A DNA stretch of 42,400 nt from a virus: positions 1 to 42,400 of the IMG/VR virus record IMGVR_UViG_3300037321_000150. One strand, written 5' to 3'. The notes below the pieces were generated by a model. It saw nothing but the letters and a program-made list of their open reading frames with translations, ran no database searches and was not told where the DNA came from. This document shows, piece by piece, positions 1,983 through 27,752 of this stretch (position 1 is its first letter; every line of letters starts with the position of its first letter). The translations under genes and the position numbers were made by a program.

Positions 1983-2126
1983 TTAATTATATAACTGTGA
2001 TTGCATTTCCATTGCCATCTCGTAAGTAACTATTTTGTTATCCTCTATCGCGGTTTCAAATTTCGATGCGAAGTTTTTCCATGCTGCTAAGGCAATCATA
2101 ATACTGTCATGGCTTCGGGTAGCTGC
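1983..2126 (-). pseudogene. 5'-truncated ORF remnant ahead of the HTH gene
   Basis: An open frame of 47 codons with no start ends at TAA 1983-1985; its product contains HDSIMIALAAWKNFASKF and ends EMQSQLYN. The composition looks like real protein. The frame is cut on its upstream side exactly where the attC-like arm of the neighbouring cassette (2111-2141) begins. It is probably the 3' part of a gene that lost its 5' end when the cassette was joined. I do not know the family. Confidence 0.5.
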
Positions 2127-2131
2127 AAACC

Positions 2132-2786
2132 GTTATAGGGCATTTAAGGAGCAAACAACAGACCATTTGCGGGATGCTTAATGTTTGTATAACTTTTGCC
2201 TGAATAATCGGCAAGAGCTTTCAAACATTCTTGAACTCCCGCTTCGTAATTTTCCTTAACAATAAATACACGGTGAATCTTTCGTCTTTGGTCTGTACCA
2301 CCGTGAAAACTGTGATAAACGGTGAATGCACCGTTTTTCCCTCTATATCCCCAAGTTTCACCACAACCCCAAAATTGGTTGTGGTTTGCGTATTGGTTGC
2401 CTTCATCAATTGAGCTTGTCATTTCTTCAAGTTCAATGTTTTCAATTTCAGATTCTGGAATAACGAAAACCATATCTTTTGAAATTCTAAACTCTGAGCG
2501 TAGTAGCTCAATTGCTGTCATGTCGCTTTGTGGCTTAATTGCCCAGACTGACCCGCAATTATACCCAAGCGAGCCACCTATTTTAACACTTGTTTCACCG
2601 GCTTTAGCTCCGTCAGTATTCCATCCAGAAACCTTTATGTGAGTTTCAGATTTTTTTTCAATTATATAATGGTGACGACCTAACGTCCCACCTGCACGGA
2701 GTTCAACTCCTGTTTCTTTTTCGCTAAGTTGAGCGAATGTGTAATAACGATTTGCCATAATTATTTGAATTAAAACGCCCTATAAC
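2132..2786 (-). mobile_element. Integron-like gene cassette A
   Basis: A perfect 10-base inverted pair, GTTATAGGGC at 2132-2141 and GCCCTATAAC at 2777-2786, brackets a single gene with little non-coding sequence. This is the geometry of an integron cassette: it begins with the TTRRRY-like half of a core site and ends, just after the stop codon, with the complementary inverse core. The 3' attC seems reduced to one arm (about 2111-2141), since the following sequence is an unrelated ORF remnant. Confidence 0.6.
2144..2758 (-). CDS. Cassette A protein, unknown function
   Basis: 204 residues starting MANRYYTFAQLSEKE. No signal peptide, membrane segment or known motif is evident. The middle is Gly/Trp-rich (residues about 125-155, with FWGCGETWGYRGKNG), and the C-terminal third is Lys/Tyr-rich. 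The gene fills cassette A: the ATG is 19 bases from the cassette's leading core and the stop is 3 bases from its trailing core, as in compact integron cassettes. No function is proposed. Confidence 0.7.
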   Translation of the reverse strand: MANRYYTFAQLSEKETGVELRAGGTLGRHHYIIEKKSETHIKVSGWNTDGAKAGETSVKIGGSLGYNCGSVWAIKPQSDMTAIELLRSEFRISKDMVFVIPESEIENIELEEMTSSIDEGNQYANHNQFWGCGETWGYRGKNGAFTVYHSFHGGTDQRRKIHRVFIVKENYEAGVQECLKALADYSGKSYTNIKHPANGLLFAP

Positions 2787-2873
2787 ATTGCATACACAAA
2801 AGCTGGGCGGAAGTGCTAATATGTACGTTCGGGTTAAAGAAGCCCCGCCTTCGTGTATGCCTTGACGTTGCTT
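2780..2873 (-). repeat. attC-like recombination site 1
   Basis: The outer cores are CTATAAC (2780-2786) and GTTGCTT (2867-2873). Inside them, GCATACAC.AAAGCTGGGCGG (2790-2810) pairs imperfectly with CCCGCCTTCGTGTATGC (2844-2860), leaving bulged bases and a loop. The length of about 94 bases, GTT/AAC outer triplets and imperfect inner stem fit integron attC sites. Confidence 0.6.
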
Positions 2874-16520: not shown

Positions 16521-17036
16521 CTAGCGGTTATTCCAGGGGGCCGTTTGCCAGCTTTTTACCTTGGCGGGTTTCAGGTCGGCGGCATCCTCGGGCTGCACAC
16601 CGGCTTCTACTTTCGTAGCGTTGGCATACCAGCTCTGCAATACGCCATACTCAGCCCGGTGTTGTTGCCAAGCCGCAGCATCCGCCCGGAGCTGTGCTAG
16701 CTCTTGGGCGCTTACCTGCTCCTGCTCGGGCTGTTCTTCGGTAGCTACTACCTCGGGGGCAGTCTCTGCCTGATGGGCTGTTTCAATGGTTTCGGCTACC
16801 ACGGGAGCTTCGTTAGCTAGCTCAGCTACTTCTTGCGTAGCTTCGGTTTCTACTGCTTCCGGAGCGGCTACCGCCTCGGGTGCAGGTGGGGTCGTAGCGC
16901 TCAGCCGATTACTAATCTCCTGCACATCGGCCCCCAATTCGTTGTAGTCTTCGGTCGTCAGCGACTCGCTCAGCGCCCGGTTCGATCTCGGAAAAAGGCT
17001 GGCCAGCAGCCCCCCCAATGTTATTGACTTAGTCAT
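16521..17036 (-). CDS. Scaffold-like protein
   Basis: 171 residues, very rich in Ala, Glu, Val and Gln, with a disordered middle (PEAVETEATQEVAELANEA) and a helical C-terminal part (AQELAQLRADAAAWQQHRAE). This is the composition of capsid scaffolding proteins. It lies between the prohead protease and the major capsid gene, where scaffolds are encoded. No catalytic residues. Confidence 0.7.
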   Translation of the reverse strand: MTKSITLGGLLASLFPRSNRALSESLTTEDYNELGADVQEISNRLSATTPPAPEAVAAPEAVETEATQEVAELANEAPVVAETIETAHQAETAPEVVATEEQPEQEQVSAQELAQLRADAAAWQQHRAEYGVLQSWYANATKVEAGVQPEDAADLKPAKVKSWQTAPWNNR

Positions 17037-17094
17037 GTGGTATTAATTTTGAATGATAGAATGATACATTTTTGAATATCCGCCTGCTGAGCTT

Positions 17095-17940
17095 TTAGCC
17101 GGCCATTTTCCGGGCCATAGCCACGGCGTCGGTCAGGCTACCCAGCGTATCCACCAAGCCTTCCTTCATTGCCTGGCGTTTGGCGTACATTTTTCCCGTC
17201 AACACTGTATCACCGCTCAGCTTTCCGGCTCTCCCCCGGCGCACGTAGCCATGAAAAGCCCGACAGGCCTCGTTCAGTGAGGTCTGTATTTCACGTTCTA
17301 GCTCGTCGGTTAAGGGTTCAATGCCGTTGATCCGGGCCTTGTCTACCGAGGCATCGGCCCGGTAAATCGTTGCCTGGTAGCCTTCTCTTTCAAGCGCAGC
17401 GCTTTGGTCTATGTACACCATTAGCACGCCTATACTACCCACCTCACTCGATAGCGAGTTCTCCATGATGATCTGATCGCATTGGCTGGCTACGAAATAC
17501 CCGGCGCTGGCGCAGAAGTTGGTCCAGGCCACAATGGGCTTCGAAAATTTCCGCACAGCGTCGGCCAGTATGTCGGTGCTGTCTACGGTGCCGCCGGGGG
17601 TGTCTATTTTCAGTACCACGGCCTTCACTTGGGGTTCTTTTTCGGCGGCTTCTAGCACGCTTACGATGCGTTCATTGCCGTACCCACAAAAGCCATAGCG
17701 GCTCATGGTGCCATCAATGGGCACCACGGCCACGTCGCCGCCACTATCTTGCAGAAAATCACGGAGGTAAGAGCGGTTGATATCCAAGTCTTCGTCTCTG
17801 GCCGAAATCCCGCCGCGAAGCTTCATGTGCCCTGGTATGGGGTCTTTCCCAGCGTGTAGCCGGGGCAGCATCACACCCTGCATACGCAGAGCAAAGCCGG
17901 CGTCGATAAACCATAATCCAGAAAAAACATCGGCAGTCAT
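17095..17940 (-). CDS. S49-family prohead protease
   Basis: 281 residues from the ATG at 17940; an upstream in-frame GTG at 17988 is less likely because it sits in the promoter-like region. The S49 (SppA-like) core is clear: KIDTPGGTVDS at 111-121, nucleophile Ser145 in CASAGYF, and the expected general-base Lys201 in VDKARINGIEPLT. It would cleave the scaffold and capsid during head maturation. It is the first gene of the head unit, with a TAGGACAGA box 53 bases upstream and a terminator beyond. Confidence 0.9.
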   Translation of the reverse strand: MTADVFSGLWFIDAGFALRMQGVMLPRLHAGKDPIPGHMKLRGGISARDEDLDINRSYLRDFLQDSGGDVAVVPIDGTMSRYGFCGYGNERIVSVLEAAEKEPQVKAVVLKIDTPGGTVDSTDILADAVRKFSKPIVAWTNFCASAGYFVASQCDQIIMENSLSSEVGSIGVLMVYIDQSAALEREGYQATIYRADASVDKARINGIEPLTDELEREIQTSLNEACRAFHGYVRRGRAGKLSGDTVLTGKMYAKRQAMKEGLVDTLGSLTDAVAMARKMAG

Positions 17941-17992
17941 AAGCGGTACGTAATTATCAGCTACGAATATGAGAAAGCTTTTCGCCACTCAG

Positions 17993-18001
17993 TAGGACAG
18001 A
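17993..18001 (-). promoter_or_regulatory. TAGGACAGA box upstream of head operon
   Basis: Exact copy of the box at 1669 and 10894, 53 bases upstream of the protease ATG at 17940 and just below a terminator. A polypurine run of GGAAAGAA units (about 18010-18037) lies next to it, as at the 1669 copy. Confidence 0.55.
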
Positions 18002-18034
18002 AAAAAAGCAGGAAAGAAGGAAAGAAGGAAAGAA

Positions 18035-18065
18035 AAAAGCCCCGCTGCGACGCAACTGGGCTTTT
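18035..18065 (-). terminator. Rho-independent terminator after the DUF1353-like gene
   Basis: AAAAGCCC (18035-18042) pairs with GGGCTTTT (18058-18065), with an inner stem around GTTGCG/CGCAGC. Minus-strand transcripts end in a U run. The hairpin also works on the plus strand. Confidence 0.75.
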
Positions 18066-18081
18066 CAAAGCTATTTTTCGT

Positions 18082-18495
18082 TCATATCAATTCTCTAAGC
18101 CTCCTAATCATGTGCTTCCAATACCACGCCCAGCCCAAAAGCCGCACGCCATAGTACATCAGGTAGGCTATTGGTTTTCGTACACCCGCTTCCAGCAGGT
18201 CGGCGCGGTACTGAGCATCCGAATTCCTGCGAGCCTTCCGAAAGCCATCTTTTCCGGCCCCTACTAAGTGGATATACCGATAATCGTGCTTCACGCTCGG
18301 AATCGCAGAAGCCCCATGTGGGGGCTCTACTACGAAAAAAAACCGGGGCATACTCGTGAAATTACTCACGAAACCCCTTGGTATCAGGTACACGCTACCA
18401 TCCGTATCGTCACAGCGCACCGGCTCCGCTACCCGCCACCACGTAGGTTTCCCGTTTCTTACTTTTTCTAGGGGGATGTCCGGATACTGCCGCAT
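18082..18495 (-). CDS. DUF1353-family phage protein
   Basis: 137 residues. The motif GFVSNFTSMPRFFFVVEPP followed by SVKHDYRYIH is the DUF1353 signature known from phage late genes. The function of the family is not established; His/Asp residues in KHDYRY could bind metal. The C-terminal half has a hydrophobic stretch (about 108-125). It is the last gene before a terminator, 3 bases after its upstream neighbour. Confidence 0.75.
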   Translation of the reverse strand: MRQYPDIPLEKVRNGKPTWWRVAEPVRCDDTDGSVYLIPRGFVSNFTSMPRFFFVVEPPHGASAIPSVKHDYRYIHLVGAGKDGFRKARRNSDAQYRADLLEAGVRKPIAYLMYYGVRLLGWAWYWKHMIRRLRELI

Positions 18496-18498
18496 TTC

Positions 18499-18942
18499 TT
18501 ACAAGTCGAAGGGAGTATTGAGGCTACCCCGGCTGATCATCCGGTGCATGATCGAGCCAAGTAACTGCTCGATTCCGGGACCAAACATAGCCCACACCGC
18601 ATCCACTTCACCCACGGCGTTCTCGGTTTCGGCGGTAGCAAACTCGAATGTCGCGGGGTCTACCATCTTCGTATTGTTACTTTCGGTATGCACCGCAATG
18701 GCTCCCGATGGTGAGTAGCGGCGGTCAATTTCCCAGGGTGAATAGGTAGTAGTAGTTGCCCCTGTTGGCTCGCCCAATTCGTCCAGTACTGGCACTTCGG
18801 TTACAGTGCGTTTCATCATCTGAATTTCGAGCATAGGCACGATTATGGACGTGACGAAGTCCACGGCGAACCCCTTGCACACAAGTTCTTGTGTTTCCAA
18901 TTCGCCCGAGCGATCGGCAATAAGTATCTTAATAGGCTCCAT
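18499..18942 (-). CDS. Tail-region protein, unknown
   Basis: 147 residues, MEPIKILIADRSGELETQELV start, acidic, no membrane segment or motif recognised. It lies 26 bases after the tail-fibre gene and 3 before the DUF1353-like gene. Possibly a fibre-assembly or minor tail protein; this is position only. Confidence 0.65.
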   Translation of the reverse strand: MEPIKILIADRSGELETQELVCKGFAVDFVTSIIVPMLEIQMMKRTVTEVPVLDELGEPTGATTTTYSPWEIDRRYSPSGAIAVHTESNNTKMVDPATFEFATAETENAVGEVDAVWAMFGPGIEQLLGSIMHRMISRGSLNTPFDL

Positions 18943-18968
18943 ATTTTTTCTTAGTTATAAGGTTGAAA

Positions 18969-20981
18969 TTATACCGTTGCGCCAGTCGCGTCTTTCCAGA
19001 CCGTGCCATTCCACCACACAGGCTTGGAAAGGGTAGTGTCGTAGTACATATAAGGAACCGGCAGAGCCGAAGTAGCAGGCCGTGCGCCCGTTGTTCCACT
19101 TTTCGGCATCTGTATTTTCTGGATTGTGCCCCCTGCTGTTTTCACGTGTAGGTAGTCGGCATCGTAGACGATACTCCCGAGCTCCATTGTCGTATCTGCC
19201 CCCGAAGTAGGCGTATAACCCCGGAGCAACTGTCGCCGCTTGAAACGAACCGGAACGGCATCGGAGGTGATAATAATATTCTGACCGTCGTCGGCGCTGC
19301 TCGTGTCGGCATTGTCTCGAACGAATATACCCACCTTAGCACCATCGCTGATCAGTACCGCCTTGGCCGGATTGCCGACCGAGTAACGCAATTCCTGGAC
19401 TGTTAGCGTAGGCAGAAGAGTCCCTAACAACTGCTTCCAGCTTGCCGTTGCCACGTCGCCCAAATCACCCACGGTGGGTAGTTGGTTAGGGTTCTTTCCT
19501 GCTAGGAGGCCACTTGTAGTGAGGGCTTGTAGTTCTGTGTTGGGCAATCGGCGAGGGTAATAAGCCACGCATACCACGATTCCAGACCAGGGTTGAGCCC
19601 CATTTGCCAATATCCCGCCTATCTCAATCGTGTTAATTGGGGGAATAGTGGCCACGGTATCCACTTGCACGGCTTCACCATTGTAGCTGACCGCGATGTC
19701 GTTGACGCGGTAGCCCAAAGCGTACCGAACCCGCTGGCCTATGCTGGTAAGCGCGCTATTTAAGTTCCACTGAATGCTTGCGGTTGTGGGGTTCTGGGCG
19801 ATTGTGGTTCGGTGCAGCGTGGGAGACCTCTGCCCCACGATTAGAGACTGGTTCGTGCTATTGTTCGTGCTGGCGAATAATAGCGCGTGGGCAACAGTGA
19901 CACTGCCGTAGCCCGTAATCCCCTCGGCGTAGAAGCTGCCTTCACCGGGCTTGATTATGTCCTCCACGTTAGGCATCACCCACGTTTCGAGGGCGCGGAT
20001 AACGGCAGTAGCACCCGTGGGAATGTACGAGGTCGGGAAACTACCCAGCTCCATCTGCATTCCGTCCACGTGCAGGAATTCGCCCACGTTAGGATTAGGG
20101 CCAAGCACACCTAAGTACCATACCCCGCCAATAGTTGTCGCTGCGGCTTCGTCGGTTCTACCGCAGATGTACCACCCATCGCGGATAAGGTGCATAAATG
20201 CGCGGGTGGTGAATCCGGTTATCACCCCCGTGGCGAGGTTGAAGTTCGTGGACTGATTCCCGCTGCCAGTGACGTACTGGCTAGTCAGTGATTCCAATAT
20301 GACAGTTGACATTGTTCCCGCCCTGAATACACCCCAGCGGGTGTAGTTCTGGCCTATTACAGCCGTGACGTTTCGGCCAAAAGCACATACCCCATTAGCA
20401 TTAACGGTCAGCTTTCCCGCGCTCATCGTCCCATCCAGCCCTTCCGAATCGTTCGGCGCGGAAGTCAGCGACGAGTTTACGGACCACCCATTGGCTGCGG
20501 AAATCGCCCCCGAATACAGGTACAGGTTTGTGGCGGCGGCTTCTTTCAACGCGCCCAATCGCCCGCCGGTGATGGGGTCGTGTTCGTAACGAATCTGGTG
20601 AGCTTTTCGCGTAACGCGAAACCCGCGCTCGTCGAAACAGGTGCCAATCGAGTCTCTTGTAACGATCAAGCGCGGGTCGAACATGTCGGCATTCGCGAAA
20701 TGCACCAGCAGCGTTGGCCGAATGCTGGGCCGCGTCGTGGCACTTCCCTGTACGATCGCTGCCGCCGCCTCCGCGCTCGCTGCCGCTTGTACGGCGGAGT
20801 TGCGGGCCGGGTCTAGCACCTCATTGAACAGATCAATGGCTTCTTCCGAAACGTCGATGGCCTCTTGGGCGTGGCCCGTGGTAAGTTTCAATACATCGCG
20901 TAGCTTCTGGGCTGTGCCTTCGCGGTTATTATTATCCGGAAACCCGGCGTCAATCAGTGCATTTACACTTGCTAAACTCAT
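18969..20981 (-). CDS. Tail fibre / receptor-binding protein
   Basis: 670 residues. An N-terminal helical region (about 1-90, Ala-rich) probably anchors to the tail. The middle has the fibre pattern GSFPTSYIPTGATAVIRALE (about 309-328), typical of concanavalin/LamG-like phage adhesin domains, then beta-rich sequence. The C-terminus has MYYDTTLSKPVWWNGTVW and ends DATGATV, a common phage fibre ending. It likely binds the cell surface. It follows the tail-protein pair at 20987-22116. Confidence 0.8.
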   Translation of the reverse strand: MSLASVNALIDAGFPDNNNREGTAQKLRDVLKLTTGHAQEAIDVSEEAIDLFNEVLDPARNSAVQAAASAEAAAAIVQGSATTRPSIRPTLLVHFANADMFDPRLIVTRDSIGTCFDERGFRVTRKAHQIRYEHDPITGGRLGALKEAAATNLYLYSGAISAANGWSVNSSLTSAPNDSEGLDGTMSAGKLTVNANGVCAFGRNVTAVIGQNYTRWGVFRAGTMSTVILESLTSQYVTGSGNQSTNFNLATGVITGFTTRAFMHLIRDGWYICGRTDEAAATTIGGVWYLGVLGPNPNVGEFLHVDGMQMELGSFPTSYIPTGATAVIRALETWVMPNVEDIIKPGEGSFYAEGITGYGSVTVAHALLFASTNNSTNQSLIVGQRSPTLHRTTIAQNPTTASIQWNLNSALTSIGQRVRYALGYRVNDIAVSYNGEAVQVDTVATIPPINTIEIGGILANGAQPWSGIVVCVAYYPRRLPNTELQALTTSGLLAGKNPNQLPTVGDLGDVATASWKQLLGTLLPTLTVQELRYSVGNPAKAVLISDGAKVGIFVRDNADTSSADDGQNIIITSDAVPVRFKRRQLLRGYTPTSGADTTMELGSIVYDADYLHVKTAGGTIQKIQMPKSGTTGARPATSALPVPYMYYDTTLSKPVWWNGTVWKDATGATV

Positions 20982-20986
20982 GGTTG

Positions 20987-21553
20987 TTATATGGTAAAGT
21001 CCTCACTAAAATCATTCGAAAACTCGGCCGCCAGGGGTGGCGTCATGGCCGGGCTAAGCGGTAGTAAGTCCCAGGGTATGCCGTCTTGCTCACCCTTAAT
21101 GGTATAGCCCCGTTTGTCGTTGCCTTTCTTACCCGATTTGAAATTACTTTTCAGGTAGAGAGGCGAGTAGCTCGTGCCCAGCACGGCGTACACATCATCC
21201 TGCATTTCGGCCACCAGCACAGCTCCGGCGTTCAGGTGCTTGCTCAGCTCAGCGCTCAGCAGGGGCAGAAAACCCGCAAACACCAGCTCCACATTGTGCC
21301 GGTAACTATGAAAGCCAGGGTCGCCTTGCTTTTCGGAGCTTACTTCTACGGTGCCGTCGGGGCAGGCATACACGGCCCAATCTTCGCCCGGCACCAGCGG
21401 CGGTAGGCTCACGATCTGCCGATCCACAATGTCAGCCGGCAAGGGCCAGGGCTCTATAATCATCCTGGCCAGTACCATGTATAGCTTCCGTACCCCGGCG
21501 GGGTTGGGCGCTTGGTAGCTCGTGGCTAGTATCGAAGAAAAGTTGAAGCCCAT
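20987..21553 (-). CDS. Tail protein, paralogue of the 14717-15370 gene
   Basis: 188 residues. CPDGTVEVSSEKQGDPGF, NAGAVLVAEM and SGKKGNDKRGYTIKGEQDG match the 14717-15370 product almost phrase by phrase. This copy has no hydrophobic leader and carries an extra acidic C-terminus (EFSNDFSEDFTI). Its start overlaps the previous stop (TAATG at 21551-21555). One paralogue may form the tail tube and the other a tail-tip or neck ring, which is inference. Confidence 0.65.
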   Translation of the reverse strand: MGFNFSSILATSYQAPNPAGVRKLYMVLARMIIEPWPLPADIVDRQIVSLPPLVPGEDWAVYACPDGTVEVSSEKQGDPGFHSYRHNVELVFAGFLPLLSAELSKHLNAGAVLVAEMQDDVYAVLGTSYSPLYLKSNFKSGKKGNDKRGYTIKGEQDGIPWDLLPLSPAMTPPLAAEFSNDFSEDFTI

Positions 21554-22116
21554 TAACTAGCGAAGTCAAAATTGAAACTATAATCAAAGGCCGAATCCGG
21601 AAACAACTCCGCCGGCTCAAAACCCGCCACCACAAACGAGGGCAGGGGCAGACGGCCCGTCCAGGTAATCACCAGCGCATTTTGGCTGGCTACGCTACGG
21701 CTCCATAGCATCCTGAGGCCGTTTTCTTCCGTGCCACTCAGCCAGGCCGTATCGTTGTAGTCTTCCCACACCAGTAGCCATTCGGTACGGTTGTGGGTTA
21801 GTAGCCAGGCCAGCAGCTCGGGTGAGGGGTTGGGTACGTCCATGCTCAGGCTCTGCTCGTAGGCGAGGCCCTGCTCACTGTCGGTGGCCGTTTCCAAAAA
21901 CCTGATGGTTCTTGGCTGCACCTGCGGCAGATACACCGTCGCGTCCAGCGCGGCCATCAGGCCAGCGGCCGGTATCTCGTAGCTTCCGCCTAGCCCCACG
22001 TGCCGCACGGGGTCAATCACCCCCAGCACATCCTGCTTGCGCAAGAGCCGGAGCCGACGCACATACCCCGCATTGAGCAGCGGGGCGTAGCTTCCAAGAA
22101 CCTGTTCTGAAATCAT
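21553..22116 (-). CDS. Tail protein of unknown function
   Basis: 187 residues from the ATG at 22116; a TTG at 22131 is a weaker alternative. Beta-rich with many Leu and Trp, and an acidic aromatic C-terminus (FPDSAFDYSFNFDFAS). No family recognised. It heads a unit with the 20987 gene and the fibre. Four variant GGACA boxes lie in the 150 bases upstream. Structural role inferred from neighbours. Confidence 0.65.
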   Translation of the reverse strand: MISEQVLGSYAPLLNAGYVRRLRLLRKQDVLGVIDPVRHVGLGGSYEIPAAGLMAALDATVYLPQVQPRTIRFLETATDSEQGLAYEQSLSMDVPNPSPELLAWLLTHNRTEWLLVWEDYNDTAWLSGTEENGLRMLWSRSVASQNALVITWTGRLPLPSFVVAGFEPAELFPDSAFDYSFNFDFAS

Positions 22117-22151
22117 ACGTAGCAAGTTCAATACATCACCGCTCCATCACA

Positions 22152-22236
22152 AGGACAACTTTTCTGTTGTAACCATCGGGCAGGACAACTTTTCTTGAAA
22201 ATAGGACAGCTTTTCCCGAAAATAGGACACAAAAAA
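22152..22236 (-). promoter_or_regulatory. Four reiterated GGACA boxes
   Basis: AGGACAACTTTTC at 22152 and 22182, AGGACAGCTTTTC at 22203, and AGGACACAAAAAA at 22224 (start positions), spaced 30, 21 and 21 bases. Same core as the TAGGACAGA boxes. About two helical turns between the last three suits side-by-side protein binding. Confidence 0.5.
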
Positions 22237-22260
22237 TCCCCGACCGTTTCGGACCGGGGT
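22231..22260 (-). terminator. Terminator after the 22268 gene
   Basis: CCCCGACCG and CGGACCGGGG form an imperfect GC-rich stem around TTT, followed on the minus strand by a U run (22231-22236). Confidence 0.7.
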
Positions 22261-22267
22261 CTCATGC

Positions 22268-22714
22268 CTAGCGTAAAAGCCGGGCTCGTTGCACCATTTT
22301 GTACGCTGCGTCGAGGTCATAATCGTCGGGATTGATGCCGTATTCCTCGTAAAACTTCTTCACCGCGCCCTGCTCCGAGGGCAGCAGCGTCATCCGGCCA
22401 TTCACGTAGTAGATCAGCGCCAGCTTAAACTGCGACTCGATACCCGCCCCGATCCGGCACAGGTGCCCATCGGTGAGCAGGTCGTAGTTCACCCGGAACT
22501 TCGGGTTAATCGTGATCGTGCTGAGCTTGATCATGCGTCTCGGCAGGTAGTCTACTCCCAGGTCGTCGCGGTCCAGCGGGTGGAAACTCAGGATCGCCAG
22601 CAGCAGATCGCCCAGCCAGTGGTCTTTTCTGATATCAGTTGGTCCGGGCCCCAGGTTCATGGGGTGTTCCAGAAACGTCTTTACGTGCGGCTTGACCGGA
22701 ATTTCTAGTTGCAT
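22268..22714 (-). CDS. Unknown protein between early and late regions
   Basis: 148 residues from the ATG at 22714 (MQLEIPVKPHVKTFLEHP). This start is preferred because a partial duplicate of the gene begins at the equivalent ATG. The protein has basic helical segments and ends KFYEEYGINPDDYDLDAAYKMVQRARLLR. It is a single-gene unit followed by a terminator, placed just ahead of the late boxes, so a late-gene regulator is conceivable but unsupported by a motif. I do not recognise the family. Confidence 0.7.
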   Translation of the reverse strand: MQLEIPVKPHVKTFLEHPMNLGPGPTDIRKDHWLGDLLLAILSFHPLDRDDLGVDYLPRRMIKLSTITINPKFRVNYDLLTDGHLCRIGAGIESQFKLALIYYVNGRMTLLPSEQGAVKKFYEEYGINPDDYDLDAAYKMVQRARLLR

Positions 22715-22736
22715 AGTCTTACGAATTGGTGGTATA

Positions 22737-22871
22737 TTAGCATTGCAAATTGCTAGTACCATTGGCCAAGTTTCTCCGCTCCCCATTAGCCCCGGCCCCG
22801 CCCTTGCCCAGGTTCATGGGGTGTTCCAGAAAAGTCTTTACGTGCGCTTTAACCGGGATTCTCAGTTGCAT
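22737..22871 (-). pseudogene. Partial duplicate of the 5' end of the 22268 gene
   Basis: The ATG at 22871 opens a 44-codon frame starting MQLRIPVKAHVKTFLEHPMN, nearly identical to residues 1-20 of the next gene. It then diverges into unrelated sequence and stops. The DNA match (22806-22871 versus 22650-22714) shows a recent local duplication of about 65 bases. Confidence 0.75.
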
Positions 22872-22977
22872 TGTCGTCAGCCAGATAAGTTATAAATTTG
22901 CCACGCAAGGAACGATCACAACGGCAGCGGCCGAACGCCACGGATTGAGTTAGCACCGGAAATTAACCCCGAAAAAG

Positions 22978-22999
22978 CCCCTCTCACACAAACGAGGGG
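22978..22999. terminator. Bidirectional terminator hairpin
   Basis: CCCCTC at 22978-22983 pairs with GAGGGG at 22994-22999. T runs follow on the plus strand (23000-23006), and on the minus strand the run at 22972-22976 gives Us. It separates the cassette island from the late region. Confidence 0.7.
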
Positions 23000-23006
23000 T
23001 TTTTTT

Positions 23007-23183
23007 ATGGGGTAAATATACGATAATTACACGTTTGCTTTGAACTAGGTTTTTAAAGTGGCGGTGATTCACTCATGGCTGCCAAGGTTTAGCTCGACGA
23101 CCATGGAATCAGGATATTGCTTCAATACCCCCTTTAAAAATAACCCAATTAAAGAGTTCTGCAAAACTTGCGCACATACGCTC
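23007..23183 (-). pseudogene. Gap holding a 5'-truncated ORF remnant next to the cassette island
   Basis: A frame ending at TGA 23069-23071 reads VLQNSLIGLFLKGVLKQY then PDSMVVELNLGSHE, protein-like but without a start. It is cut where the attC-like arm ending at 23183 begins. This mirrors the truncated frame beside the other island. Nothing else is evident between 22872 and 23217 apart from the terminator at 22978. Confidence 0.45.
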
Positions 23184-23217
23184 GTTAGCGGCAATGGGGC
23201 TGTCCGTTTTTAATGTT

Positions 23218-23538
23218 TTAAGTTATTGTTATTTTTTTCCATTTATTTGACTTCATTCCTTTTTCTGGGTTATGAATATTTAAAATTGTGTCTTTGTAAA
23301 AATCGCAAAAATACTGCTCCCTATCTCTGCCTTGTATTTCGTTTGTTTCTTCAATTATTTTTATTTTTGGCAGTAATCCTTTTTCAAATAACATTTCAAG
23401 CCATTTTCTTTTAGGAGTAAATGATTTGTCTAATTTTTTAACGTGTTGATTGTATCTTGTTTTTGGGTTTTTTGTTTTGCCAACATATTTAACCGTATTT
23501 TCAATAGGGCAAATTAGCGCGTAAATATATTCAGTCAT
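23218..23538 (-). CDS. GIY-YIG-family nuclease
   Basis: 106 residues. The GIY-YIG core is YIYALICPIENTVKYVGKT (4-22), followed by RYNQHVKK with the usual Arg and His, and a Glu in RDREQYF. Single-domain proteins of this kind are free-standing endonucleases, sometimes homing enzymes. The ATG overlaps the glycosyltransferase stop (23535-23538), so it is the last gene of the cassette B operon. Confidence 0.8.
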   Translation of the reverse strand: MTEYIYALICPIENTVKYVGKTKNPKTRYNQHVKKLDKSFTPKRKWLEMLFEKGLLPKIKIIEETNEIQGRDREQYFCDFYKDTILNIHNPEKGMKSNKWKKITIT

Positions 23539-24257
23539 AACTTTATATTTAGTTTTCTTTGATATTTATGATGAAGTTTTGAATCGTTTCGTCCTTTTTT
23601 TAATTGTACAGAATCTCCAAACATCATTTTTAAAAATAATGTATCTTTTTTTTCGCTTGTCACGGTTCTTTTTAAACTTTGCCCTCCATCTAGCGTAAAA
23701 GTTGAGTTTGATTTTTGTCTAAATGCGTATCTAGTGTCCTGGAAAGAATATCTATTATAGTATGCGTTTAGTAAGTTTATCCAGTGACTTTCGCAAGCTG
23801 TAGTTTTTGGGCTGAAATACAAATTATCATCTTCAATAAGTCCAAACGCACAAGCGTTAATATATCCATTAGCGACAAATGGTTTCTGTGGCTTGTAATG
23901 TTTTGGATTTAAAGAACTGTTGAATCCGAATAATTTAGCGTTTACTTGTTTTGAATTATAGTAAGTTTCCTGTATTAGTTCGTATATTTCTTTTGAATCT
24001 AAAACTACATCTATATCCACGAATAACCTTTCTACAGAAACTATATCATCATCAATTTGAAAGACACTACCCAATTTTTTAAATATAAACTGTCTTATGT
24101 CTGAAAGTTTGTTTTCTTTATGGAAAATCTTTTCACAGTCAAATTTAGAATAATCTTCTTTTTCGCTTTGGTGAATGCAAAGGATTTGATTAAAAACGTT
24201 TGTTGTTAATATTTCACTCCGCTTGTGTGTTGGCACAACTATTTTAATTTCAGCCAT
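23535..24257 (-). CDS. TAGT-like DNA-base glycosyltransferase (GT-A fold)
   Basis: 240 residues. KIVVPTHKR (5-13) opens a GT-A Rossmann-like domain. FQIDDDIVSVERLF at 67-80 carries the acidic DDD expected to hold a metal-nucleotide sugar. The later sequence, KLFGFNSS, KPFVANGYI, HWINLLNAYYNRYSFQDTRY, DGGQ and FGDSVQ, follows the pattern I associate with TET-associated glycosyltransferases, which put sugars on modified bases in phage DNA. No TET oxygenase is seen in the window, so the acceptor is unknown. It overlaps both neighbours, indicating one operon with the ParB-like gene. Confidence 0.65.
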   Translation of the reverse strand: MAEIKIVVPTHKRSEILTTNVFNQILCIHQSEKEDYSKFDCEKIFHKENKLSDIRQFIFKKLGSVFQIDDDIVSVERLFVDIDVVLDSKEIYELIQETYYNSKQVNAKLFGFNSSLNPKHYKPQKPFVANGYINACAFGLIEDDNLYFSPKTTACESHWINLLNAYYNRYSFQDTRYAFRQKSNSTFTLDGGQSLKRTVTSEKKDTLFLKMMFGDSVQLKKGRNDSKLHHKYQRKLNIKL

Positions 24258-24931
24258 ATTTCTTGTAGTTTTTCAACGGTTAAAATATTTGACAATCTAT
24301 TATCAGTTAATTTGTGGCTTGTTTGTTTTTTGGTGAGTTCAAAAGTATTCCGGATAAAACTTTCATCTATTTCGTTTTCGCACAAAATAATGAAGTACGA
24401 ATATTTCTCGTGAAAGGATGGCGTTATTGCTAGTTCGCAATTTGTGTCATCGTACTTTTTTATTTCCTTTTCAAATTCATCATCCCCAATTTCGTTTTTA
24501 TTTAAAATATCTCTTGTCACTTCCATATCCACCCCCCAATCAGCAAGCGTTTCAAAATCAAAATCCCAATCAGCAAGCATTTCAAAATCAAACTCCCCTG
24601 CGTGGGTATTACTAATAATAGCATACTCTTTTACTTCTTTTTCTGTCAGCTTCCGGTTTGGGTATCTCACATCAATCTCTTCATCGCCTCTCTCTGCCAT
24701 TAGCAATGCCGCTACCCTTTGGTTGCCTCCAAGAATTCTCATGTCGGTATTAACTGCTGGTATCTCAACCAAGTTAAACTTTGATAGACTTTCTGCAAGT
24801 TTCTTTTTCATAGCATCAGAAATCTTACGTGGATTAATATCCAGTTGCACAAGGTCTTTCACTTTTACTTTTCGTGTTTCCCATTGTAATGGACAGTTTG
24901 AAATTTGCTCCCCTTCGCTTTTTTTATTCAT
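24239..24931 (-). CDS. ParB/Srx-domain protein
   Basis: 230 residues. A ParB N-terminal-like domain occupies about 20-105: VKVKDLVQLDINPRKIS, IPAVNTDMRILGGNQRVAALLMAE with the GGNQR signature at 68-72. Stand-alone phage ParB-like proteins are often encoded next to DNA methylases or base-modifying enzymes. A short internal duplication, DFEMLADW / DFETLADW (about 114-132), is visible as a DNA repeat at 24536-24596. It is first in the cassette B operon, 38 bases from the leading core. Confidence 0.8.
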   Translation of the reverse strand: MNKKSEGEQISNCPLQWETRKVKVKDLVQLDINPRKISDAMKKKLAESLSKFNLVEIPAVNTDMRILGGNQRVAALLMAERGDEEIDVRYPNRKLTEKEVKEYAIISNTHAGEFDFEMLADWDFDFETLADWGVDMEVTRDILNKNEIGDDEFEKEIKKYDDTNCELAITPSFHEKYSYFIILCENEIDESFIRNTFELTKKQTSHKLTDNRLSNILTVEKLQEIWLKLK

Positions 24932-24970
24932 CGTTATTAATTTAATTTAGTTTATAATAAATCCCACCGC

Positions 24971-25139
24971 CGCTAACACGTGCTATACAAAAGTGGCGGT
25001 TTGGTTCTCCGCAGAAACATTTGTGGTTTAACAAACATTTGTACTCCGCATTAATATTTGTACTCCGCATTAACATTTGTACTCCGCATTAACATTTGTG
25101 GTAAAAATCCCCAACTTCGCCAAGCCGCGCTCGTTAGTC
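24971..25139 (-). repeat. attC-like site 3, long variant with tandem repeats in its loop
   Basis: Outer cores are CGCTAAC (24971-24977) and GTTAGTC (25133-25139). The inner pairing is weak except GCGGTTTGG (24996-25004) with CCAAGCCGC (25121-25129). At 169 bases it exceeds the usual attC size because of the tandem repeat at 25036-25092. Possibly a hybrid of two sites. Confidence 0.5.
25036..25092. repeat. Three tandem 19-base repeats
   Basis: Unit CATTTGTACTCCGCATTAA three times (25036, 25055, 25074; the second copy has T for the first C), with partial copies on both sides. It lies inside the loop of attC-like site 3. Confidence 0.9.
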
Positions 25140-25145
25140 ATAAGG

Positions 25146-25373
25146 CTAACCGATGTATTTCCTGACAAAGTATTGGTCACGATTACAAAACTCCGTTCTA
25201 TGAGAATTTAGACCATCCCCATAAGCATCTCTTATTTGTTCAGCCTCTGTCAGTAAAAGGCTTTTAGCTTCATTAATCGCAATATTTAACACTCTACCAT
25301 ACAAAGGGTCATTATCCCATTTTTCTTTGGCTCCTTCGAGCCTTTTTATTAGTTCATTTAACGGAGTTTCCAT
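25146..25373 (-). CDS. Small conserved phage-type protein (cassette gene)
   Basis: 75 residues, METPLNELIKRLEGAKEKW start and LLLTEAEQIRDAYGDG middle. This resembles a small helical protein common in Bacteroidota phages and prophages, with a core of LL..E...I.dAY..G; its function is unknown to me. It lies between two attC-like sites, but the cores at its two ends do not match each other (GTTATGT and GACTAAC), so this cassette has recombined. Confidence 0.65.
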   Translation of the reverse strand: METPLNELIKRLEGAKEKWDNDPLYGRVLNIAINEAKSLLLTEAEQIRDAYGDGLNSHRTEFCNRDQYFVRKYIG

Positions 25374-25414
25374 TTCGTTTTCAAATTAAATTTAGTGCTG
25401 ATAAACCGCCCAGC

Positions 25415-25538
25415 ACATAACAGCGGTTTGCCAAAAAAGCCGTTTAGTATTTCAAATGAACATTGGCGGTAAACATCAACATTCGTGTTCCAATTAAGCA
25501 TCCGTTTTGGCTTCTTCGCAAAGCACCATCCGTTAGCC
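25415..25538 (-). repeat. attC-like recombination site 4
   Basis: Cores are ACATAAC (25415-25421) and GTTAGCC (25532-25538). The arm GCGGTTTGCCAAAAAAGCC (25423-25441) pairs with GGCTTCTTCGCAAAGC (25509-25524) with bulges. At 124 bases it is of normal attC size, lying directly after the methyltransferase stop. Confidence 0.6.
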
Positions 25539-25544
25539 GCAACC

Positions 25545-26285
25545 TTAGAGCAACTCCCTAAGTGTGCCTTCAGCCTTGTACCTTTTGACAGCGTTTTGAA
25601 ATATAGTTGGACTTGCCTCTAACCCGACAAATTCAAACCCTTTCTTTGTTGCTGCTATTGCGGATGATGCAGAACCTAAGTGAGTATCTAATATCTTATC
25701 ACCGGGCTTTGCAAAGTCATCTATAATTCGCTTGTAAAGGTTTACGGGCTTTTGGGTTGGGTGTATTCGCTTTTCCTTATTTTTCATATCGGATTGCATC
25801 ATCCCACTCCATAAGTATCTATAAACTATTGCAGGGCGATTAAAGGAAGTCCAAGCCGTTTCACAATCTGCAAAATCATTGCTGTATTTATCCTCTGTTT
25901 TTTTATCCCAAACTATGTAACATTTACAGCTACTTAAATGCTCGACATAATAATTCCAGCCCCAAATAATTTGGTTTTTGCTTACTCTCATAAGTTCTTT
26001 AAAATAGCTGCTATCAGGAACGCATTTATCCCAATCTTTATCAAATTTGCTGTAATCATTACGCTTTGCCACGCCACCATTTACCGATTGCGTAAAGTTC
26101 ATACTGCCAATGTTAATGCCATAAGGCGGGTCAACTATTGCCAGCTCAAAGGCATTGTCGGGTAATCCTTTCATATATTCCATACAGTCAATATTGTGTA
26201 AGGATAAAAAAGGCTGCACATAACATTGCATTGCTGCTATGCCGGCTGACGGAAGTAAATCATCTTTTTGTTCTTTGTTCATCAT
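25545..26285 (-). CDS. DNA methyltransferase, N4/N6 type
   Basis: 246 residues from the ATG at 26285 (MMNKEQKDDLLPS); the in-frame extension upstream runs into attC-like sequence. DPPYGI at 52-57 is motif IV, and DTHLGSASSAIAATKKG near the C-terminus is the SAM-binding motif I, so the order is catalytic first, SAM site last, as in the beta class (pfam N6_N4_Mtase). DPPY favours adenine-N6. It probably modifies phage DNA against host restriction. No partner endonuclease is seen. Confidence 0.85.
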   Translation of the reverse strand: MMNKEQKDDLLPSAGIAAMQCYVQPFLSLHNIDCMEYMKGLPDNAFELAIVDPPYGINIGSMNFTQSVNGGVAKRNDYSKFDKDWDKCVPDSSYFKELMRVSKNQIIWGWNYYVEHLSSCKCYIVWDKKTEDKYSNDFADCETAWTSFNRPAIVYRYLWSGMMQSDMKNKEKRIHPTQKPVNLYKRIIDDFAKPGDKILDTHLGSASSAIAATKKGFEFVGLEASPTIFQNAVKRYKAEGTLRELL

Positions 26286-26297
26286 TAGTTTTTTAAT

Positions 26298-26318
26298 GCC
26301 CTGCCTTCGTATAGCACC
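26298..26318 (-). repeat. attC-arm remnant at the edge of the cassette island
   Basis: On the minus strand, GTGCTATACGAAGGCAGGGC resembles the arm in attC-like site 3 (GTGCTATACAAAAGTGGCGG). No partner arm or core remains beside it. It marks the upstream border of the island against the GC-richer early genes. Confidence 0.45.
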
Positions 26319-26339
26319 AGCCGGGGGCGGTATCACTGC

Positions 26340-26765
26340 TCATAGCTCCGCCACCTCCTTTCTTTCGTTCACTACCCGAAGCTCGTTGTGGGCTCCGTAC
26401 CTAATATTCAGGCCATAGCGTTCAAATACCCTGTTCATTTCCAACGAGAAGGCGCTGCGCTCGTCGTCGGGCACATCGGTAGTAGCTAGGCTGATCATCA
26501 TCACCTCGTACATCCTGTTCATCAGGAAGTCGAGTTCTTCGCTTTCGCCATCTTCAATCGTCCTGGGGTTCCAGAGCGTCAGGGCGGCGTGCTTTTCCAG
26601 CTTGGGTAGAAATAAGTTGGCCGCGGCCTTCACATCCTGCTTATACAAGCTGGTGTGTTTCAGCTTATCCATCAGATGGATCGTGAAATGCGTGCTCGTG
26701 GTGAGCATCAGCGACAGCCGCTGCTCGTGCTGGCTCAGTGGCCGTCGGGTTGTTTTTGGGGTCAT
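26340..26765 (-). CDS. Early-region protein, unknown
   Basis: 141 residues, helical and charged (MTPKTTRRPLSQHEQRLSL start). No known motif. Its ATG overlaps the stop of the preceding 57-residue gene (ATGA, 26762-26765), so the two are coupled. It is the last gene of the early operon before the cassette island. Confidence 0.7.
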   Translation of the reverse strand: MTPKTTRRPLSQHEQRLSLMLTTSTHFTIHLMDKLKHTSLYKQDVKAAANLFLPKLEKHAALTLWNPRTIEDGESEELDFLMNRMYEVMMISLATTDVPDDERSAFSLEMNRVFERYGLNIRYGAHNELRVVNERKEVAEL

Positions 26766-26935
26766 AGCTGCACCCCTCCTTTCTTCTTGCCGGCCTTGGT
26801 ACTTGGCAGCGGTACTACTGGCAACGAGGCGATGTACTCCGTAGCCGACTCACCGCGAAGCTCCTTCACGCCCCGGCTGCCCAGCTCACCATCATACAGC
26901 CACACCCACGTAGGGCTTAGTATTTCGTGTGTCAT
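26762..26935 (-). CDS. Small 57-residue early protein
   Basis: Product MTHEILSPTWVWLYDGELG..., ending GKKKGGVQL. The ATG at 26935 overlaps the end of the upstream gene and the stop overlaps the next ATG, so the gene fits the operon exactly. Trp/Tyr-rich start, basic C-terminus. Function unknown. Confidence 0.6.
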   Translation of the reverse strand: MTHEILSPTWVWLYDGELGSRGVKELRGESATEYIASLPVVPLPSTKAGKKKGGVQL

Positions 26936-27159
26936 ACTTCCACCCCTCCTTCCACGAAAATACCCAGCCCGACATAGTGCCCTTCCCCCGAAAAAAAAAG
27001 CTCGGATCTCCGCACAATATCCACCGCAGTCAATGCCTGGTTTTTTGCTGCCAGTAATTTCTTATCGCCCCATCGGTTTTCTTTCTTGGAAGAGAAATAG
27101 GCATTTTGCCGCTCGCGCATCTGCTGTATGTGCATCGCTAATTCTTTTGTCGTTATCAT
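26932..27159 (-). CDS. Small helical early protein
   Basis: 75 residues from the ATG at 27159 (MITTKELAMHIQQMRERQNAYF). The longer in-frame extension upstream is ignored because it translates the repeated leader sequence and overlaps the neighbouring gene. The pattern of an N-terminal helix, a basic loop, then AKNQALTAVDIVRRSELF resembles small helical phage proteins of unknown role. Purine-rich ribosome-binding sequence (GGAGGAAAGGAGGAAG on the coding strand) lies about 30-45 bases upstream. Confidence 0.6.
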   Translation of the reverse strand: MITTKELAMHIQQMRERQNAYFSSKKENRWGDKKLLAAKNQALTAVDIVRRSELFFSGEGHYVGLGIFVEGGVEV

Positions 27160-27164
27160 TTTTT

Positions 27165-27188
27165 TGTTTATTGTGAAAATTTGAATTC
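27165..27188 (-). repeat. Repeated early-gene leader, copy 1
   Basis: TGTTTATTGTGAAAATTTGA followed by ATTC; the same sequence recurs at 27761-27784 and in variant form at 28101-28121 and 33487-33507, each time within about 30 bases upstream of an early-gene start. Confidence 0.7.
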
Positions 27189-27212
27189 TTCCTCCTTTCC
27201 TCCTTTCCTGCC

Positions 27213-27752
27213 TTAACCCTTCCCCCCATAATACCGCCGCAGGAGCTCCCGGTTTTCGGTACCTATTTCGGCTTGCTTCAAGAAGCTCGTGGGCCGGTTC
27301 TTCACGATCCATTCGGCAAGTTGGAGGGCGGCAGCTAGCGTGTGGGCGTCGGGCAGATCTACCTCGGGTAGGGGAGGCTTTACTTCTTTATCAGGCTGGT
27401 AATGGATCTCAAACATCGGCTGGCCACTAGGGCTGATCATATCCGGAACCGCCTCGGTTTTGATCTTCCTGCGGTTTTTCAGCATCTGTCGGATCATATT
27501 CCTGGGCCGAAAATCGCACTCCGTGTTGCCTTCGTACATCAGTAACCGGTAGGCGCTAGGGGAGGTACTAGGCATCAGGAACAGGCGTTTGTCGGGTTCT
27601 AGGTAGAGCTCCACGCCCGTAGGCCTACCCATGGCCATGTACAGGCCGAGTGAAAGCCTGATGGTGTTACGATAGGTATACACCGACACAAACAGCTGCC
27701 GCTTGCGGCTATAGTAGGCAAACTTGCCATCGGTTTGTTTGTTGATTAGCAT
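27213..27752 (-). CDS. Early-region protein, unknown
   Basis: 179 residues starting MLINKQTDGKFAYYSRKRQLFV. The N-terminal half is beta-like with an ELYLEPDKRLFLMP segment; the C-terminal half is Pro-rich, then helical (ALQLAEWIVKNR). No motif recognised. It follows the 27757 gene across 4 bases, with a repeated leader just upstream. Confidence 0.65.
   Translation of the reverse strand: MLINKQTDGKFAYYSRKRQLFVSVYTYRNTIRLSLGLYMAMGRPTGVELYLEPDKRLFLMPSTSPSAYRLLMYEGNTECDFRPRNMIRQMLKNRRKIKTEAVPDMISPSGQPMFEIHYQPDKEVKPPLPEVDLPDAHTLAAALQLAEWIVKNRPTSFLKQAEIGTENRELLRRYYGGKG

Follow-up and report, generated by a model that had tools for sequence, protein, structure and literature searches.

A glycosyltransferase operon as probable cargo of an integron-like cassette in a Bacteroidota-type phage record

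In classical integron cassettes the gene comes first and the site follows, and by the integron cassette rule both outer cores belong to the cassette lying between two sites. A survey with IntegronFinder 2.0 reported almost no complete integrons in Bacteroidetes (PMC9024848). Integrons and CALINs have been described in 21 phages, including Polaribacter phage P12002L with its methyltransferase cassettes, and one P12002L site was recombined by IntI1, the accessible text of that paper not stating which one (Qi et al. 2023, PMC9892861). Since phage cassette arrays with DNA methyltransferases have thus already been published, cassette cargo in a phage is less unusual than the preliminary description of the present locus had supposed.

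Here, we analysed a stretch of 42,400 bases, positions 1 to 42,400 of IMG/VR virus record IMGVR_UViG_3300037321_000150 (hereafter the window). The source is a virus of Bacteroidota-type bacteria: genes for a phage-type integrase, a repressor, a terminase and a tape measure are present, and the nearest relatives of the tape measure are those of Flavobacterium phages. A relative, G001, carries ~5.8 kb between window bases 42400 and 1 that the window does not have; therefore, the record is not a complete genome. We consider it probable that an operon with a TAGT-like glycosyltransferase in this window is the cargo of a mobile cassette, and that the integron-like system to which it belongs is widespread in Bacteroidota-type phage records, a judgement that includes the steps proposed below for insertion and function.

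Cassette limits and attC-like sites in the window

GC content drops from ~55% (50-57% around) to 30-40% between ~23.0 and 26.3 kb, with 30-34% at the operon. All genes of this 3.3-kb island lie on the minus strand and comprise a DNA methyltransferase, whose true start is probably near 26285, a 75-aa ORF, and a ParB-like/glycosyltransferase/GIY-YIG trio (Table 1). As the preliminary description had it, the trio is a single operon of overlapping genes. An Rfam search gave no matches.

Table 1. Features of the window and of related records discussed in the text
Feature	Position	Strand	Details
Second cassette, same class	2107..2868	-	paired site 2868-2781; 204-aa ORF 2758-2144; end core near 2138
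attC-like site remnant, left array end	23050..23187	-	core and CCGCCACTTT arm end; no intact partner arm
Core GCCGCTAAC, cassette end	23184..23192	-	present
Whole cassette (attC-like site, ParB-like, TAGT-like, GIY-YIG)	~23187..25133	-	9/9 facing cores
GIY-YIG nuclease, 106 aa	23218..23538	-	PF01541 3.3e-9, over cut-off; homing-endonuclease PHROG 5123 3.5e-6
TAGT-like glycosyltransferase, 240 aa	23535..24257	-	DDD at residues 69-71; phrog_842 7.1e-13, residues 3-232 of 240
ParB-like protein, 230 aa	24239..24931	-	phrog_620 1.5e-16 over residues 18-208; ParB part of phrog_498 1.5e-18; GGNQR motif
Core GTTAGCGGC, start of cassette body after its site	24969..24977	-	present
attC-like site 2	24974..25136	-	matches to array arms: 22/25 for arm 2 (25001-24977), 19/26 for arm 1 (shuffle maximum 19-20)
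75-aa ORF between sites 1 and 2	25146..25373	-	no family matches (profile and PHROG searches)
attC-like site 1, complementary arms	25418..25535	-	scanner score 21.7; arm 2 matches array arms 24/25
N4/N6 DNA methyltransferase, cassette adjoining site 1	25545..26336	-	PF01555 1.4e-16
attC-like arm, right array end	26298..26323	-	23/26 match to array arms, e.g. of L094 and L100
995-bp ParB-gene cassette	L138 11211-12205	-	also L157, L180, L190, L113, L149, L161, L182, L198, L122
Short XerA/IntI-like recombinases adjoining last site of long arrays	L202, L203, L204, ~1.2-2.1 kb	-	

The perfect 9-base cores first described around exactly one operon were confirmed: GTTAGCGGC and GCCGCTAAC are full complements flanking the single overlapping operon, and neither occurs elsewhere in the window (0.32 expected; at least two in 6 of 100 shuffles). 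Facing GTTANNNNN/NNNNNTAAC pairs 200-2500 bases apart number 962 in the window, a count that takes each palindromic pair on both strands, so that ~0.5 unique 9/9 pairs would be expected; exactly two are present, the operon pair and a pair at 2786/2135 that belongs to a second cassette. The cores had been taken as integron-type borders of a cassette, a reading that independent data support, but as facing halves of two neighbouring attC-like sites and not as both ends of one attC. By the rule drawn from cassettes shared between other records, crossover would fall between TAA and CG on both sides, and the travelling unit of the operon cassette includes the attC-like site at 24974-25136, 5' of the ParB gene. 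For both the operon cassette and the second-locus cassette, the cassette start is complementary to its own outer box at 9 of 9 bases. The 75-aa cassette breaks this core rule, and the methyltransferase cassette also fails it by eye.

The operon cassette is one of three in a partly decayed array, whose cassettes are flanked by site 1, site 2 and the right-end arm, all in one orientation and on one strand. Window arms match array arms at 22-24 of 25-26 positions, where shuffles reach 20 at most; the majority of the window sites are hybrid or damaged. Taken alone, the single-strand folding energies of the window sites were not significant, and no argument here draws on them. Stems pair at site 1 and at the second-locus site and do not pair at site 2 or the right-end site; considering this lack of pairing, together with the left remnant, the array may be a fossil and may no longer be active.

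Such decay bears on the most serious alternative, in which a decayed array entered the phage from a host integron by homologous or illegitimate recombination rather than by site-specific insertion. Three features would suit it: arms that are hybrid or fail to pair at site 2 and at the right array end, a site 2 loop with tandem repeats, and a phage that has no integron integrase. No such integrase was recognised in the window record, where the phage-type integrase reaches 33.6 bits, the cut-off being 265, and the element is accordingly not a complete integron with an integrase of its own. On the other hand, homology of the right-end arm stops exactly at the inferred crossover, where TAA would begin, and gives way to phage DNA (GGGGCGG), and a second cassette of the same class with a paired stem lies elsewhere in the record. 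The latter has arms matching at 24/26 and 22/25, cores GTTATAGGG/CCCTATAAC matching at 9/9, and occupies another low-GC stretch; a relative with 99.6% identity as far as window base 1697 and 98.6% from 3599 onwards has only 253 bases in its place. We therefore regard entry by homologous or illegitimate recombination as possible, though clearly the less likely course, and favour insertion of a mobile cassette.

For the operon array itself, a search for an empty site from the neighbouring gene had no success. G001 was considered as an empty-site relative and set aside because the stretch 17013-27709 is missing at its contig ends, so that it shows no empty site. In a more distant relative (L006) the flanking genes are present and the array is absent. 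Joining both array flanks produces a 31-codon frame that has no relative, and it was not used.

A site class shared among phage records, and its candidate recombinases

A pattern built from one window site and one site of phage record L003 matched 109 IMG/VR stretches. Our scanner for the class (TAACG, stem, TGTTA), which itself requires TAACG and TGTTA, recovered 215 sites in 709 kb of pattern-chosen IMG/VR records, ~80 of them being seeds, versus 3 in dinucleotide shuffles. Loci selected solely because they contain the transferase gene, 744 kb in all, gave 1 site, and a core-arm pattern had no matches in genome contigs. Arrays reach 13 sites per locus in one orientation, and terminase and portal genes were found in array records. 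Facing cores match at four or more of the five outer bases in 126 of 147 cassettes (~12 expected), and within a single site the two cores agree at only 17 of 215 sites; this is the integron cassette rule, by which both outer cores go with the cassette between the sites. ORFs run with the site rather than against it at a ratio of 158:10, or 62:1 for long ORFs (62 of 63 cassettes), and the gene-bearing strand folds the better hairpin at 212 of 266 sites. The canonical boxes RYYYAAC and GTTRRRY are not kept, the constant part being only TAAC/GTTA.

We show that whole cassettes of this class are shared between records. Ten viral records hold copies, 99.8-100% identical, of a 995-bp cassette whose gene is ParB-like (PHROG 12305). 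Homology begins at the T of TAACG and ends at TAAC; two different flanks occur to the left of it and five to the right. Some of the ten have a common backbone and are not independent, and L138 and L180 stand apart from the others in both flanking regions. In L144 and L145, genes homologous to the window methyltransferase lie in cassettes, and these two records share that cassette with the same site before the gene and different outer cores. The limits of the shared units indicate that what travels is a site followed by a gene, the attC-like site standing 5' and not 3' of the cassette gene; therefore, every cassette carries an upstream region of its own. The ORF of the methyltransferase cassette in L144 and L145 can have its start within the attC-like site and continue across the second arm of that site, and the site may thus supply the start region of the gene. 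Classical polarity was observed in two Hymenobacteraceae plasmids, from Rufibacter and Pontibacter (L212, L210). There, small genes with short attC-like sites are arrayed behind a longer tyrosine recombinase, and these arrays are Bacteroidota plasmid integrons.

Attention had been drawn to a whole operon moving as one cassette. Its cassette nature held up, and movement was seen for other cassettes of the class rather than for this exact operon: DNA and protein searches of phages, plasmids, IMG/VR and GTDB genome contigs returned no second copy, and its mobility is therefore argued from the class. Two candidate matches, L002 and L004, were judged to be chance. What the data establish for the class as a whole is the presence of attC-like sites, the core rule and the sharing of other whole cassettes with breaks at TAACG/TAAC.

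Of 34 array records, four encode a tyrosine recombinase of 266-279 aa that is related to XerA and IntI and falls below both cut-offs, scoring 150-163 against the cut-off of 265 for the integron integrase profile. Three of the four lie within ~60-500 bases of the last site and share the orientation of the genes; the fourth is some kilobases away. We infer that these short recombinases act on attC-like sites of the class. Their relatives are present in many plasmids, and in the four Bacteroidota plasmids examined there was one class site, read against the genes. Because the only integrase of the window record is of the phage type, the cassette would have been inserted into the phage by a short XerA/IntI-like tyrosine recombinase supplied in trans, from the host or a co-resident element. 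We give about even chances to the broader proposal that Bacteroidota phages share a dedicated integron class, with the site upstream and giving the gene its start region, with cassettes moved by short XerA/IntI-like recombinases missed by current integron profiles, and with a common pool of DNA-modification genes open to unrelated phages.

The glycosyltransferase and its predicted role

The window transferase is TAGT-like as judged by its whole-length profile (PHROG 842) and predicted fold, similarity in both extending over the whole domain, which bears out the earlier assignment by the checks proposed with it. D69, D70, G191 and G192 are invariant across 28 sequences. When the AlphaFold model was queried against viral structures, TAGT-domain proteins were the top named matches, the BFVD entries being named TET-Associated Glycosyltransferase (best named one 1.5e-7); the model has a mean pLDDT of 62, with 70-91 over the first 110 residues and a weak C-terminal half. 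The ParB-like partner, also foreseen from the sequence, was corroborated by its two profile matches.

Whether the enzyme might instead act on a polysaccharide or capsule, so that the operon changes the host surface and not DNA, was also considered. Among PDB fold matches the top rows are the teichoic-acid transferases TarP and TarS, none below 0.001, and this leans towards such a role. The PHROG 842 assignment, the TAGT-domain structure matches, the overlapping ParB-like and GIY-YIG partners and the methyltransferase next door argue against it, and we consider a surface role improbable.

Among the 30 window proteins scanned, no base hydroxylase, hydroxymethylase or oxygenase was recognised, so that the record offers no linked base oxygenase or hydroxymethylase for the TAGT; the larger ORFs in the ~5.8 kb of the close relative that the window is missing show neither. 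In Nonlabens phage P12024L, a family member has a Tet/JBP dioxygenase (PF12851) on one side and a DNA methyltransferase on the other. Phage record L003, in which a terminase is present, has a second TAGT-family member with a small partner ORF, alone between two sites; with the window and L003 transferases both in cassettes, TAGT-family transferases have become cassette cargo on at least two occasions. Proteins related to the L003 transferase at 77-93% identity are encoded in ordinary phage operons without sites, as would be expected if the window genes were ordinary phage early genes and the cores chance palindromes, a reading made very improbable by the arm matches, the low-GC island, the core statistics and the precise sharing of cassettes within the class.

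Returning to the operon as cassette cargo, the three-gene set probably puts sugars on phage DNA. The TAGT would add a sugar to a modified base of that DNA, the ParB-like and GIY-YIG proteins would work with it, and the sugar modification, together with the neighbouring methyltransferase, could hide the genome from host restriction. The operon may thus modify phage DNA or protect it from restriction.

Comparison with known systems

Arrays of up to 13 sites occur in Bacteroidota-type phage records despite the near-absence of complete integrons reported for Bacteroidetes. If the short recombinases work on the sites, a whole route of phage-phage gene exchange lies outside the usual searches and is now directly testable; such a route, if true, would be loaded with methyltransferases, ParB-like proteins and base glycosyltransferases. 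In the literature searched, which covered few subscription journals and preprints, we found neither the site-first layout nor this recombinase pairing described, and within it the reversed layout, the shared pool and the TAGT cargo appear new.

The transferase resembles the TAGT family (PHROG 842) in profile, predicted fold and DDD motif, and differs in being only 14-24% identical to the TAGT set used here and in that no Tet/JBP dioxygenase was recognised in its record. The P12002L CALIN is alike in that a Bacteroidota phage carries DNA methyltransferase genes flanked by attC-like sites. With our scanner, P12002L yielded sites of the same class on the minus strand at 38936-38879 and 38090-38035, with facing cores matching at 8/9 around DNA methylase gene 0054. 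Its cargo is methyltransferase only, and the accessible text describes no site-first layout, cross-phage core rule or TAGT/ParB cargo (PMC9892861). With classical integron cassettes, the phage class shares a palindromic site (paired in the window at site 1 and the second-locus site), a cassette start complementary to its own outer box, arrays, and breaks at the core. The classical cassettes have the site 3' and a strict GTTRRRY, whereas the phage class has the site 5', the core GTTA[GT]NN, and recombinases that score under the IntI cut-off.
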